From NCBI GenBank assembly GCA_022828125.1, contig JAJEJD010000020.1:62001-126000 (forward strand): a stretch of DNA of 64,000 nucleotides. The letters run 5' to 3'. The notes beneath the pieces were generated by a model, which saw nothing but the letters and a program-made list of their open reading frames with translations, was not told where the DNA came from and made no database searches. The DNA is from a bacterium (GTDB lineage: Bacteria > UBA8248). The stretch's first letter is position 1; each line of letters starts with the position of its first letter. Position numbers and translations under genes: made by a program. Shown in pieces: positions 1,943 through 9,045 of the stretch.

Positions 1943-3355
1943 TTAAATGTCATAGTAGAGATGGAATTCATGGGGATGCGGACGCAGTCGAACCGCATCC
2001 ACTTCCTCTACACGCTTGTATTCGATCCAGTTGTCAATGACATCCTTCGTGAATACGTCGCCTTTCAGCAAGAACTCATAGTCCGCCTCGAGCGCGTCCA
2101 GAGCTTCGGGCAGGCTGCCGGGCGTCTGCTGAACGCTGCCCTTTTCCTCGGGACCGAGATCGTAGAGATTCTTGTCGATAGGCTCGGGCGGCATGATTTT
2201 ATTCTGAATGCCGTCCAAACCCGCCATCAGCATTGCGGCGAAGGCCATATAGGGGTTGCATGAAGGGTCAGGGCAGCGGAATTCGACCCTCTTGGCCTTC
2301 TCGCTTGAAGAATACATCGGAATCCGCACGCATGCGCTTCTGTTGCGGCAGCTATAGATCAAGTTGATAGGCGCCTCATAGCCGGGTACCAAGCGGCGGT
2401 AGCTATTCGTCGTCGGGTTCGTGAAAGCCAACAATGCGGGCGCATGCTTCAATAAACCACCGATGTAGTAAAGCGCGTCAGGACTCAAGTCGCCATAGGT
2501 CCCCGCACGATACATGATATTCTTGTCGTCTTTCCAAATGCTCTGGTGGCAGTGCATTCCGGTGCCGTTGTCGAGAAAAACGGGTTTCGGCATAAAGGTC
2601 GCCGTCTTTCCATGCTTTCTCGCCACGTTCTTGACGATGTATTTGTACTTCATCAGCTTATCCGCCGTGGTCACCAGAGTGTCGAATCGAATATCGATTT
2701 CACATTGCCCCGCAGAGGCCACTTCATGGTGGTGTACTTCACACTCGACGCCACATTCGAGCATCGTCAGCATCATCTCTGAGCGAACGTCCTGTAGCGT
2801 GTCGTTGGGCGGCACAGGGAAATAACCTTCTTTGTAGCGGTTTTTGTGACCGAGGTTCGGATCTTCGTTGGCGCCCGTGTTCCAGGCGGCCTCAGATGAA
2901 TCAACTTCGTAGAATGCATGATTTTCCGAACCGGAATAGCGCACGTCGTCGAACACGAAAAATTCGGCTTCGGGGCCGAAATAAGCGACATCCCCGATAC
3001 CTGTAGACTTCATATACTGTTCTGCCTTGATGGCAATGTGACGGGGGTCCCGATCGTAAAGCTCGAGAGTAACAGGATCCTTGATGTCACAGATAAGAAC
3101 CAGGGTCGGAATTTTCAGGAATGGATCCATAAACGCGGTCGTCGGATCCGGAATAAGAAGCATGTCGCTCTGATCGATGCTTTGGAACCCCCGGATGCTC
3201 GAGCCGTCAAAACCGACACCTTCTTCGAAGGTATCTTCCTCAAGAGTATCGATGTGCGCCGAGAAGTGCTGCCACATACCGGGCATGTCTATGAAACGAT
3301 AGTCAACCATTTGGGCGCCGCTTTCCTTAGCCAACTTCAAGACATCTTCAACCAT
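1943..3355 (-). CDS. glnA: glutamine synthetase type I
   Basis: 470 residues, the usual length of GSI-beta. It makes glutamine from glutamate, ammonia and ATP as a cytoplasmic dodecamer. [10 protein letters not shown] near residue 50, [11 protein letters not shown] and the [17 protein letters not shown] segment are classic GSI motifs. NLYDLGPEE places Tyr 398 at the adenylylation site, so GlnE-type control is likely although no glnE is in the window. A GGAGG ribosome site (3364-3368) sits 8 nt before the ATG. It is the last gene of glnB-glnD-glnA, 81 nt after glnD. Confidence 0.97.
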
Positions 3356-3436
3356 CTGTTACACCTCCATACGGAATGCGGTTTTGCGAGAAATTATCGA
3401 CACAAAACCAGGATTTGTTCAGCCCTTCAGGCTTCG

Positions 3437-6178
3437 TTATGACACGATGGCGCCTACTGGACGCCCTTCCTCGAGAATTTCGCTAAGATTTCCGCACAAC
3501 TCCTTCAGTCTGGTCGCATCTTCTATTTTTTGACCGCTGTCGTCCGTGATGTAGAAGGCATCCACCGCACATTGGCCCTCCGTGGTAATTTTGGCCCGCG
3601 AGATAGATATGCCCTCTTGCGCGAAGAATTGAGCAATCTGCGCCAGAAGGCCATGTCTATCCGGCGCAACTACTTCCAGAACCGTTGCATTTTCACTCGC
3701 CGTCTGGTCGAATTCGACCAGTATCGGCAAATCGAATGACATCCGTTTCTTCAAACGCAAATATTTTTTGCTCCGTCCCAAAAATTCAGGCAATCCCAGT
3801 TCGCCCGACAGTAATTCCTCCAGCGATTCCCGAAATTCTTTCCATAGGCCTTCATCGACGACGGCCTTTCCCTCTGCATCTACTACCTCGAATGTATCGA
3901 TCACCAAGCCGTCCTCGCGTGTATATACTTTCGCATCCAGAATGTTGAGCTCATACACTGCAAGCGCGCCGGCGACGAGCGCGAACAAACCGAGTTGATC
4001 CTTGCACAACAGCGTCAAGAGCGTATATCCCCGTCTTCTGCGGTGCGTGATGTCGACCTCGCAAATCGTTTCATCCGAAATACGGGTTCCAAGCTCAATA
4101 TGGCGCAGGATGTCTTGCGGCGAAGTTCCTGTGCGGTATCTATCCGGCATGGACTCCATGTGCCCGGCGATTTCTTCGCGCCCTATCCGGCTCCCTCCAG
4201 CTCTCGCCTCCAAACTCACCTGCTCTACGATGTCTTCCGCGCGCTTTCTCCTGTACAAATCCTCTCCCGTTTCCATCACCCTGAGCACTCGTTTATACAG
4301 TTCGTAGATTAAAGCACTTCTCCACTCATTCCATATACCCGGAGCGACGGCTGATATATCCGCATAGGTTAAGAGATAAAGCATTTGGAGCCTTTCCACC
4401 GTCTCCATTTTATCAGCGAAATTGCTTATCAAGACAGGATCGTCGATATCACGCCTTTCAGCCGTGATGCTCATTTCAATATGGCAAGCCACCAAAAATT
4501 CGATGATGCTTCCCTGGTCCGCCGGCAGGCCCATACGCATTATGATGTCGGGAAGCGCGGATGAACTCTTGTGCACATGCCTCGGCCCTCTCGCCTTTCC
4601 GATATCGTGAAACAAAAGCGCAAGCCTCAAAATGTTGGTGCGCTCCATCTCTCTATGGATATGGGCCACTTGTTGCAAGGACACGTCTTTCGTGTATGTG
4701 AGTTCATCCAATGCCGCCAGGGTCAACAAAGTATGTTCATCCGCCGTATATCGATGGTAGTGATCGTACTGGACGAAACATGTCAGAGGTTCAAACTCGG
4801 GGATATAACGCCCCAACAGACCGAGACCGTGCATTTCGTGCATCGTAGTCGCCACACCGGCCTTGCCGCTCAATATCCGCAAGAAGCTGTCCCTCACATC
4901 CGGCGATGAGCGAAAACTATCGTCGACGGTATCCAGGTGGGCTCGAACAAAGTTTCTTGCGCTCGGGGATAAACGGCACCCGAAGCGATATTGACACTCG
5001 AATATCCTCATCAGGCCCGTAGGATTTTCAAGGATTTCTTCAGGATTGGATTCATCCAGAACGAGCGAATGGTAGTCCTGTAAAGCCAACCCATCTTCGA
5101 GGGGTTGGAGCCGGGGTTTCCTGTTGACCCATCTCCTACTCTTCAGATGGTCTTCCAGGATTTCAAAAAAATCTCGGCAAAAAATATGCAAGTCTCTGGC
5201 ATGCAAGAAGTAATCGCGCATCAAGCATTCACTCGCCAAAGCGCTTTCTTCATCTTCATAACCCAACGCAGGAGCGACCTCGGCTTGCGCCGGAAAATTC
5301 AGCATATCGTTTTTGGCTTTTGCGCGTATGTGGAGTTGGGCTCGGATGCGAAGAAGAAAATCATAAGCCTTCGTCGCCTTTTCGAACTCCGCTTGCGGAA
5401 CCCAGCCCTTGCGCCATATTTCGTCCATTTCTTTCAGGCCAAAAGCCTTGGCCAACCAGCAGACGGCATGGAAATCCCGCAAGCCCCCCGCGCTTTCCTT
5501 CACGTTCGGCTCCAGGACATAAACCGAAGGATCCCATGAGCGATATCGTCTCATTCTCTCTTCAAGGCGATTTCGAAGATGCGAACTTTTCGCGACACGC
5601 TGCAGATAACCATCGAATTTCTTGTTGAATTCCCGAAAAACTTCTTCGCTACCCGCCAAGAATCGATTCTCCAGCATGGCGGTTTCGCTTTGGTAATCTT
5701 CTTTGGCTATTTTCAGACAATTAGAAATGGTTCTGGCGCTATGACCTATCGTAAGACCTGCATCCCACATTAGATACAAGACAGATCGTATCAACTCACT
5801 GATTTGCCCCTCATGTCCCGAAAATAGAAACAACAGATCGATATCCGAGCCAGGAGACAATTCCTCCCGCCCATACCCGCCAATCGCTACCAAAGCGCAT
5901 GAAAACGCCTGCTCGCTTTTGCCGGATTTTCCTTTTTCTCCCTCCAAAGCGTACGCATAGACTTGAGCAATATACGCATCCATGAAATTCGCATAAGCTT
6001 TACACAACTCGTACCCGCCCGCGCCCTCATGCTGCGCATTGCATATATGTTCACCTGCCTCCGCGTACGCCTCCTTGATATAGCGGAGAAAACCGCTTCG
6101 TTCCCACCCGCCAGCGGCAAGAGTAGTTTCTCGGATATCGCTTTGAAGTTTTAGTAAATGATTGAGAGATGGCGTCAT
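3437..6178 (-). CDS. glnD: [protein-PII] uridylyltransferase / uridylyl-removing enzyme
   Basis: 913 residues, full length for GlnD. The nucleotidyltransferase motif GGYGREELSPGSDIDLLFL lies at about residues 100-118 with the Asp pair at 112 and 114. An HD hydrolase domain follows (LLFHDIGKARGPRH, about residue 520), then two C-terminal ACT domains (about 720-800 and 825-900) that sense glutamine. It uridylylates PII when nitrogen is short and deuridylylates it when glutamine is high. It starts 12 nt after the PII gene, which encodes its substrate, so the two are co-translated. The ribosome site before this ATG is weak, in line with coupling. Confidence 0.96.
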   Translation of the reverse strand: MTPSLNHLLKLQSDIRETTLAAGGWERSGFLRYIKEAYAEAGEHICNAQHEGAGGYELCKAYANFMDAYIAQVYAYALEGEKGKSGKSEQAFSCALVAIGGYGREELSPGSDIDLLFLFSGHEGQISELIRSVLYLMWDAGLTIGHSARTISNCLKIAKEDYQSETAMLENRFLAGSEEVFREFNKKFDGYLQRVAKSSHLRNRLEERMRRYRSWDPSVYVLEPNVKESAGGLRDFHAVCWLAKAFGLKEMDEIWRKGWVPQAEFEKATKAYDFLLRIRAQLHIRAKAKNDMLNFPAQAEVAPALGYEDEESALASECLMRDYFLHARDLHIFCRDFFEILEDHLKSRRWVNRKPRLQPLEDGLALQDYHSLVLDESNPEEILENPTGLMRIFECQYRFGCRLSPSARNFVRAHLDTVDDSFRSSPDVRDSFLRILSGKAGVATTMHEMHGLGLLGRYIPEFEPLTCFVQYDHYHRYTADEHTLLTLAALDELTYTKDVSLQQVAHIHREMERTNILRLALLFHDIGKARGPRHVHKSSSALPDIIMRMGLPADQGSIIEFLVACHIEMSITAERRDIDDPVLISNFADKMETVERLQMLYLLTYADISAVAPGIWNEWRSALIYELYKRVLRVMETGEDLYRRKRAEDIVEQVSLEARAGGSRIGREEIAGHMESMPDRYRTGTSPQDILRHIELGTRISDETICEVDITHRRRRGYTLLTLLCKDQLGLFALVAGALAVYELNILDAKVYTREDGLVIDTFEVVDAEGKAVVDEGLWKEFRESLEELLSGELGLPEFLGRSKKYLRLKKRMSFDLPILVEFDQTASENATVLEVVAPDRHGLLAQIAQFFAQEGISISRAKITTEGQCAVDAFYITDDSGQKIEDATRLKELCGNLSEILEEGRPVGAIVS

Positions 6179-6190
6179 CGGAAGATATCG

Positions 6191-6547
<357 letters not shown>

Positions 6548-6859: not shown

Positions 6860-7180
6860 ATGGAATGCACGCTTTTAGAAGCGCCGGTAGAATGCCATTT
6901 TGCATCGAAAGGCTACAATGGACAAAACCAATGCTCATACAACGGGAGTTCCTGTTTGCCCGTCGTCGAGGAATGCCTTTCAGGCGATGACGAAAAAGCA
7001 TGCGAACACATCTTGGAGTTTCCAAAAGGAAAGTTCTGCTCTAAATTTCCCAATCCGGAAAATCGTTGGGAACGCGGCAGATGCCCTCTCGCGACGCATA
7101 TCAAAGTAGACTTCGAGGCCCCTCTGGAGAAAAAACTCAACCCCCTGAAAGCCTCGAAACGAGCCGCGCGAGGAAACTGA
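6860..7180 (+). CDS. small eight-cysteine protein of unknown function
   Basis: 106 residues with Cys at 3, 12, 25, 32, 39, 48, 60 and 75 and a C-terminal segment ending W-x3-GRCPLATH. The cysteine number would suit a zinc or iron-sulfur site, but spacing does not match a ferredoxin or a zinc ribbon that I recognise. No signal peptide or membrane segment, so probably cytoplasmic; the last 25 residues are Lys/Arg-rich. An AGGAG ribosome site (6845-6849) precedes the ATG by 10 nt and a strong hairpin follows, so this looks like a real single-gene transcript. Function not assigned. Confidence 0.75.
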   Translation: MECTLLEAPVECHFASKGYNGQNQCSYNGSSCLPVVEECLSGDDEKACEHILEFPKGKFCSKFPNPENRWERGRCPLATHIKVDFEAPLEKKLNPLKASKRAARGN

Positions 7181-7263: not shown

Positions 7264-8982
7264 CTAAGCTACCAGAAGAGCCAAAACCCCTGCAATAATG
7301 AATATCTGATCGGCGGCCACTTCCATGAGTCCGCTATGCCCCAGTATCTTTCGAGAATACCAGTATAGGCATGCACCTGCATACATAACCGGAACGAGCA
7401 TCGCGTAGCCGAACGACGGAGCTACCCACCCGTTTATGCAGGCGCTAACGAGAGCGACGGCCAATGCGGCGCAGATGGCCCCCATAAGCGCTTCGGTCTG
7501 CGCTTTTCCGAAAACGATCGGCAATGTTTTCTTGCCTACAATTCTATCGCCTTGAATGTCTCTCAATTCCATCAAGCCGGTTCGGAAGAAAATCAAACCG
7601 AAAGCGAAGAAAATCGACACCACCCAACCCGTGGAAATCGATTGAGAATTCGCCAGCGCGGGCAAAACCGCCATGCTGAAGGTCCAGCCCAATGCAAGAA
7701 CGAGAATCTTCAAAGCCGGGAGATTCATCACCCGCCCCACGAGTGCGCGAGGTTCGAGCTTCAGGCTGCAAAAGATGGCCCACATCAGACCGGCTATCAG
7801 AATACCCCCGGTCAGGTAGGAGATACTCATCCCGAACGCGATGGATACCAAGGCGGCGACCCATGACAGGGTCAACAGAATGAGTTTGTGTTTTTCATAA
7901 AAAAGAGCTCGATTGGGTTCATTGTATCTATCCGCCTCATAGCTGACACAACGATTTATCGTATGAGCCGCGAAGAGATAAAGGCCTGCCGTCACGGCGA
8001 GTCTCATCGAGAGGGGAAAACCACCCAATTTCGCGATGGCGATGCTGCCCAGCAACGCGGATAAGAAAAGAAGAACATTCGCTCTCGACAACACCTTGAG
8101 AATATCAACAAGCTTATCTGTGATATTTGGATTCGGATCGGGAATCGCCTCGATACGGTTGACGACGCGCCTGATCATCCAATCCGGCGTAGAGGCGCCC
8201 GCCGTTACGGCGATGTTCTTGTATTGCTGCAGGAATTTTTCGTCAATCTCATCTTCGGTTTCAATGAGAATCGAATCTGCGCCTTCCTCCTGCGCCACTT
8301 CCACCAAGCGGTTCGTGTTGCCACTGTTGCGACCTCCGACGACGACCATCAGATCGACATCGGGCGCCAATTTCTTTACCTCTTCCTGACGAACCTCTGT
8401 TGCATCGCAAATCGTATTGAACATTTGGGCTTGGGGATATTTCCGCAAAATCGCTTCTTCCACACCTTGCCACTCGCGCATGTTGATGGTCGTTTGCGCA
8501 ACCACTACGACAGGTCGATCGCCGATGTCCGGGAGCCCGGACACATCTTCCATGCACGTTATCAGATGGCTGCCGGCCTCCGCGTAGCCCTTGTGGCCAT
8601 CCACCTCCGGGTGACCTTCTTCTCCAATAATTACTGTGAATGCACCCATGCGAGAATGCTTTCTGATGACCCCATGCACTTTGGCAACGAGGGGACAGGT
8701 AGCATCTCGAATGCCTGCGCCCGAATTTCTTAAACGATCACGAACCTGCGGCGAGATGCCATGCGCCCGGATGACGACCAGACTCGTACTGCTCGGCGTC
8801 TCCTGGGGATCGGAAACAAGAACGCTTTTCTGCTCCAGCAATTCCACCGTTTGCGGATTGTGAATCAACGGCCCATGTGTGAGAACTTCGCTGGATGCAT
8901 CATTGGCCGTGTCCAAGGCGATATCGAGCGCTCTTTCCACTCCCCAGCAGAAACCAGCAGTCTTAGCCAGCTTGACTCTCAA
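7264..8982 (-). CDS. ispH: IspH-UbiA fusion: HMBPP reductase with C-terminal prenyltransferase-like domain
   Basis: 572 residues if the start is the TTG at 8982, which has an AGGAGGG ribosome site (8989-8995) 6 nt upstream; an ATG at 9006 lies before that site and is less likely. Residues 1-280 are a complete IspH: cluster Cys 12, 96 and 192, Glu 126 in HPEV, and GGRNSGNTNRL. IspH makes IPP and DMAPP in the MEP pathway. Residues 290-572 are a multi-pass UbiA-type domain with DIQGDRIVGKKTLPI as second Asp motif. The first motif reads NRCVSYEAD (343-351), with Ser where the first Asp is usual. The fusion links isoprene supply to a membrane prenyl transfer; its substrate is unknown. Confidence 0.9.
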   Translation of the reverse strand: MRVKLAKTAGFCWGVERALDIALDTANDASSEVLTHGPLIHNPQTVELLEQKSVLVSDPQETPSSTSLVVIRAHGISPQVRDRLRNSGAGIRDATCPLVAKVHGVIRKHSRMGAFTVIIGEEGHPEVDGHKGYAEAGSHLITCMEDVSGLPDIGDRPVVVVAQTTINMREWQGVEEAILRKYPQAQMFNTICDATEVRQEEVKKLAPDVDLMVVVGGRNSGNTNRLVEVAQEEGADSILIETEDEIDEKFLQQYKNIAVTAGASTPDWMIRRVVNRIEAIPDPNPNITDKLVDILKVLSRANVLLFLSALLGSIAIAKLGGFPLSMRLAVTAGLYLFAAHTINRCVSYEADRYNEPNRALFYEKHKLILLTLSWVAALVSIAFGMSISYLTGGILIAGLMWAIFCSLKLEPRALVGRVMNLPALKILVLALGWTFSMAVLPALANSQSISTGWVVSIFFAFGLIFFRTGLMELRDIQGDRIVGKKTLPIVFGKAQTEALMGAICAALAVALVSACINGWVAPSFGYAMLVPVMYAGACLYWYSRKILGHSGLMEVAADQIFIIAGVLALLVA

Positions 8983-9045
8983 TCGTATCCCTCCTGAAAC
9001 TTGCAACGTAAGATACGTTCATACTCCCAAGGCAATCGCATGTAC

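Follow-up and report, generated by a model that had tools for sequence, protein, structure and literature searches.

IspH is the HMBPP reductase that catalyses the last step of the MEP pathway, the conversion of HMBPP to IPP and DMAPP; it is essential in organisms that obtain all their isoprenoids through this pathway, and is an antibacterial target. Fusions of IspH to a UbiA-type domain are already published and are not new: Rao et al. (2015) described 47 of them, mainly from Desulfobacterales (sulfate reducers), and assigned the UbiA part to PT_UbiA_5, a domain of unknown function with two DXXXD repeats (PMC4746011). A local supply of IPP and DMAPP was proposed for these proteins, and expression of the full-length protein failed (PMC4746011). 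IspH in a second kind of fusion, IspH-RPS1, was shown to be active (PMC4746011). In animals, UBIAD1 senses GGPP while bound to HMG-CoA reductase (HMGCR) (PMC9314443).

The window (the whole stretch of DNA that was analysed, 64,000 nucleotides) carries a fusion gene of the IspH-UbiA type (Table 1). As originally predicted, a single open reading frame joins the two parts in one polypeptide, with both Pfam domains above their cut-offs: LYTB (PF02401) scored 300.7 bits (cut-off 24.5; residues 11-286 of P0001) and UbiA (PF01040) 57.0 bits (cut-off 34.2; residues 314-551). Counted from its first TTG, the minus-strand frame spans 7264-9006. The TTG at 8982, preceded by GGAGG, is the likely start codon, since genus-mates have in-frame stops directly upstream of 8982 and the protein is kept from LRVKL onward. 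The IspH half also matches NCBIfam TIGR00216 (ispH_lytB, 297.8 bits, cut-off 187.85). The prediction that it keeps all cluster cysteines and Glu126 was confirmed: Cys12, Cys96 and Cys192 are present, as are the substrate-site residues His41, His74, His124, Glu126, Thr165, Ser220, Asn222 and Ser264, and these active-site residues are identical across 68 aligned fusions (Cys12 in 67, with one gap). The fusion gene is the single PF02401 match in the whole 3.9-Mb, 97%-complete genome. Given the complete active-site set, the low dN/dS within the genus (0.025) and the absence of a second copy, the IspH half is very likely an active enzyme.

Table 1. Positions of the fusion gene, its domains and key residues in the window, and of unfused UbiA-like genes at other loci
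Feature	Position	Strand	Basis or remark
ispH-ubiA fusion gene	7264..8982	-	572 aa, TTG start, sole IspH of the genome
IspH domain, residues 1-278	8149..8982	-	Pfam LYTB, active-site residues, dN/dS 0.025
Linker and pre-TM1 helix, residues 279-302	8077..8148	-	AlphaFold2 helix 287-300
UbiA-fold membrane domain, residues 287-572	7267..8124	-	Pfam, AlphaFold2, Foldseek
Altered Asp motif 1, N343-R-C-V-S347-Y-E-A-D351	7930..7956	-	Gap-free alignments
Cys405 replacing the UbiA tyrosine (AfUbiA Y139)	7768..7770	-	Alignment to controls
Intact Asp motif 2, D475-I-Q-G-D479	7546..7560	-	D479 invariant in 68/68 and 73/73
Unfused UbiA-like gene	L230:6384-7244	+	Directly behind frdC-frdA-frdB
Unfused UbiA-like gene	L231:5545-6405	-	Directly behind frdC-frdA-frdB
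Unfused UbiA-like gene	L236:4177-5094	-	Directly behind frdC-frdA-frdB

Two further UbiA genes, separate from the fusion, were found in the genome, namely a heme O synthase gene, ctaB (TIGR01473, 272 bits), and an MqnP-like gene (TIGR01475, 276.7 bits), both with an acidic motif 1. Because these genes already cover both jobs, a role of the fusion's UbiA half in menaquinone or heme O synthesis is unlikely. The gene neighbourhood revealed no shared operon partner among 46 flanking genes at 20 fusion loci and the window, where only scattered methyltransferases recur; the phosphoesterase upstream of the fusion in the window recurs once, apparently in the same family (L229). Convergent with the fusion gene is a gene for a small, Cys-containing DUF6811 protein (6860-7177, plus strand, 84.6 bits), and a nitrogen-regulation cluster of glnA, glnD and a P-II gene lies just downstream of the fusion (1943-6529, minus strand).

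The same domain order is present in all seven genomes of the genus (7/7), in most of the family and in many other phyla, several of which are represented by 1-3 genomes only. The sample comprised 74 distinct fusion ORFs, of which 73 UbiA halves were scored for motifs and 68 fusions were aligned, and it extends the range of the fusion well beyond the Desulfobacterales sulfate reducers. Named relatives are labelled Nitrospinota, Nitrospinae or Candidatus Tectomicrobia bacteria. Spacing between positions 278 and 302 is 23-25 residues in 58 of the 68 aligned fusions and 20-25 in 67. An assembly artefact, a chimera or a lost stop codon, the last of which had been named as a way in which the original prediction could fail, was rejected and is vanishingly improbable, since independent genomes from many phyla contain the same fusion, and its linker hardly varies in length. 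No viral copies of the fusion were found in a search for them. One contig labelled Gammaproteobacteria (L049), with the end of a fusion at the contig edge (86% identity), is probably mis-binned.

Fused IspH domains group together in a 95-row tree (support 95/97), with one unfused, long-branch row (L199, G040) placed inside. Most simply, this would reflect one origin of the fusion and one loss, possibly of the UbiA half in L199, the placement of so long a row being unsure. Two other genera of the window's family (G009, row L192; G010, row L193) have an unfused IspH outside the fused clade; this IspH comes from a different lineage, which would suit a replacement of the fusion.

The UbiA half consists of nine long hydrophobic helices. 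Its AlphaFold2 model, built from the 68-row alignment, has a mean pLDDT of 90.3 and a pTM of 0.84. Foldseek matched the model to the UbiA structures 4od4 (TMt 0.68), 4tq4 (TMt 0.61-0.64), 4tq3 and 6m31, and to the IspH structure 3dnf. A sequence search of the PDB with the UbiA half gave weak matches only, the best being chlorophyll synthase (E 0.03).

Studies of AfUbiA and Escherichia coli MenA indicate which residues a canonical enzyme of this fold depends on. In AfUbiA, N68 and D72 are ligands of the first Mg2+. The substitutions N68A, D72A, R22A and K146A abolish GPP binding, whereas D198A and D202A are milder, with binding 45- and 21-fold weaker, respectively (PMC4106721). E. coli MenA needs the equivalents of N68, D72, D198, D202 and Y139 (PMC4106721). 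The window protein has the equivalents of N68, D76, D198 and D202, and lacks those of D72 and Y139; Arg300, Arg412 and Lys425 are candidates for the equivalents of R22 and K146, in loops that align uncertainly to the control proteins. The original prediction of Ser347 in place of the first Asp held up. In its longer context, N343-R-C-V-S347-Y-E-A-D351-R-Y-N-E-P, motif 1 aligns gap-free with chlorophyll synthase NDFYDRDIDAINEP, where the subsequent NEP anchors the alignment, and with NRFADRDID of the genome's own MqnP-like protein. Neither comparison shifted the aspartates so as to complete the motif; a misalignment hiding the first Asp was rejected on this basis, and Ser347 is a real replacement. 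The NDxxDxxxD motif is thus incomplete, with Asn343 and the second Asp (Asp351) retained, while the DxxGD of motif 2 is intact, as was also predicted. At the Y139 position, which the original prediction did not mention, Tyr occurs in 57/57 controls and 53/73 fusions, and Cys (Cys405) in the window's genus. Since two residues needed in MenA are replaced by Ser347 and Cys405, canonical prenyl transfer may well be altered or lost.

Most of the fusion clade shares the loss of motif 1, and on these alignments Ser347 is not peculiar to this genome. The two motif-1 acids were both found in nine of the 73 fusion halves, compared with 54 of the 57 UbiA proteins that served as controls and came from related genomes and from genomes with a fusion, and two of the three control exceptions (L136 and L138) are themselves relatives of the fusion domain. 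Position 347 is Asp or Glu in 44/73 fusion halves, and position 351 is Asp in 23/73. Members of the window's family always have Ser or Gly at 347, in the setting NRCx[S/G][Y/F]xADR[Y/F]NEPNR. Motif 2 survives far more widely: position 475 is Asp or Glu in 69/73, and Asp479 is the only UbiA-half residue invariant across the clade. Many controls, above all those of the CtaB type, misalign at the motif-2 columns, making control counts for motif 2 unusable and leaving those for motif 1 unaffected. Residues conserved across the fusion clade are N302, K425, W433, R467, D475, D479 and D558; among these, the conservation of N302, K425, R467 and D558 does not extend to the controls, to which the loops around 425 and the final helix are poorly aligned. 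The trait of two DXXXD repeats therefore fails for most of the fusions sampled here, although it may hold for the sequences of Rao et al. themselves. The closest outside rows of the UbiA tree (L083 and L085) retain motif 1, which makes loss inside the clade the simpler reading, with this outgroup on a long branch and the fork weakly supported (97/52). At least part of the clade may consist of working transferases, as nine keep the full motif 1 and 25/73 jointly keep the equivalents of N68, D/E72 and Y139.

Among seven members of the genus, the UbiA half has a mean dN/dS of 0.11, which shows purifying selection, and evolves faster than the IspH half (0.11 versus 0.025). Variable sites number 2 of 26 in residues 339-364 and 3 of 26 in residues 467-492, against 84 of 234 in the rest of the UbiA half; the two motif blocks are the least variable (5/52 versus 84/234, Fisher p = 1e-4). 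Pseudogene decay was rejected on account of the dN/dS and the constraint on the motif blocks, and the pattern would fit a pocket retained for a role that either differs from the usual one or is a modification of it. The earlier suggestion that the UbiA half uses another substrate or has lost activity is strengthened and widened by the clade-wide loss of motif 1 and by Cys405, whereas simple decay is disfavoured by purifying selection. An inert membrane anchor, meaning a decayed enzyme that does nothing beyond keeping IspH at the membrane, would agree with the missing motif 1 and tyrosine, with a single invariant residue in the UbiA half and with its faster evolution, but the old active-site loops are the most constrained part of the half (5/52 versus 84/234 variable sites), and D475 and D479 persist, which an anchor alone would not need. 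We regard this explanation as very doubtful.

Our preferred reading, tentative and with somewhat less than an even chance of being right, is that the UbiA half is a UbiA-derived domain that docks IspH at the membrane and binds a ligand, with canonical prenyl transfer altered or lost. An active IspH would be held at the cytoplasmic membrane face by its C-terminal UbiA-fold domain. Close to motif 2 this domain would still bind a ligand, for which a prenyl diphosphate or some other isoprenoid of the membrane is the likeliest candidate, but in the window's genus it would no longer perform canonical two-metal prenyl transfer. By analogy with UBIAD1, the docked domain might also tune IspH to isoprenoid supply.

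An enzyme with changed chemistry would, however, also show constrained motif loops. The UbiA half could still catalyse prenyl transfer to some acceptor, through a metal site rebuilt from E349/D351 and motif 2, and be fed locally by IspH, as in the proposal of Rao et al.; we consider this possible, if on the unlikely side. It is in keeping with a motif 2 that is intact in 69/73 fusions, with the constrained loops and clade-specific polar residues, and with the full motif 1 of nine fusions. The products of IspH are C5 units, and another synthase would have to act before long-chain transfer. Moreover, E349 is replaced by Arg in a fusion of the same family (L014), and both Ser347 and Cys405 stand where E. 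coli MenA needs Asp and Tyr (PMC4106721). The local channelling of IPP and DMAPP, also raised in the original prediction, appears weakened for the window's genus by the loss of residues needed in AfUbiA and E. coli MenA.

A different kind of ligand is suggested by unfused relatives. The UbiA-like proteins L136 and L138, found with a profile of the UbiA half, together with L236, have motif 2 in common and no motif 1. They are nested within the fused clade of the UbiA tree, in which branches are long and many forks are left open. In one family, such genes lie directly behind frdC-frdA-frdB in all three genomes with a readable context (3/3), and a fourth copy ends at a contig edge. These loci were recognised by Pfam Sdh_cyt and Fer2_3/Fer4_8 in all three and by FAD_binding_2/Succ_DH_flav_C in L230; the frdA genes of L231 and L236 were named by the likeness of the protein start to that of L230. 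The UbiA half may accordingly bind menaquinone or menaquinol and connect an Fe-S enzyme with the quinone pool, so as to supply IspH with electrons or sense redox state, with a counterpart beside fumarate reductase in that other family. UbiA enzymes such as MenA and MqnP act on quinone precursors, and the frd linkage of relatives inside the fusion clade points the same way. Menaquinol (about -74 mV), however, donates electrons only weakly to a [4Fe-4S] reductase, frdC is already the quinone-linked membrane subunit at the frd loci, and the nesting depends on the uncertain tree described above; a quinone-binding role seems quite unlikely. One guess is that the IspH and fumarate reductase contexts share a quinone or isoprenoid ligand. 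More speculatively, and in our view unlikely though well short of far-fetched, the fusion clade and its relatives could represent a repurposed bacterial UbiA family that binds a membrane isoprenoid, either a prenyl diphosphate or a quinone, performs no canonical transfer and couples this ligand to Fe-S reductases. Across many phyla its partner would then be IspH, and in a single family fumarate reductase, and it would form a bacterial counterpart, in logic, to UBIAD1 sensing for HMG-CoA reductase.

A widespread lineage in which IspH is joined to a membrane domain prompts the question of whether bacteria regulate or localise their precursor supply at the membrane. The failure of the two-DXXXD prenyltransferase expectation for most of the sampled clade alters the priority of experiments, and the frdCAB-linked relatives offer a second context in which to search for a ligand.

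Compared with the fusions of Rao et al., the window protein has the same domain order, the three cluster cysteines and a UbiA-fold C-terminal domain, and its host genome likewise carries separate UbiA/MenA-type genes. It differs in its Nitrospinota/Tectomicrobia-type host, in a motif 1 without the first Asp and in Cys for Y139; two DXXXD repeats, a trait that does not delimit the clade, are not found in it, given Ser347. With UbiA, MenA, MqnP, CtaB, ChlG and the archaeal DGGGP synthase, the UbiA half shares the fold, the nine helices, the DxxxD of motif 2, the motif-1 Asn and Trp433, whereas its NDxxDxxxD is incomplete, its catalytic Tyr is Cys, and N302, K425, R467 and D558 are additionally conserved. 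IspH-RPS1 fusions, known from Clostridia and other anaerobes (PMC4746011), similarly place IspH N-terminal to an unrelated partner, but that partner is the soluble ribosomal protein S1, with no homology to the UbiA half. The pair of UBIAD1 and HMG-CoA reductase resembles the fusion, by analogy only, in that a UbiA-fold protein is physically coupled to a reductase of an isoprenoid pathway; UBIAD1, however, is unfused and eukaryotic, acts with another reductase and is also a working enzyme.
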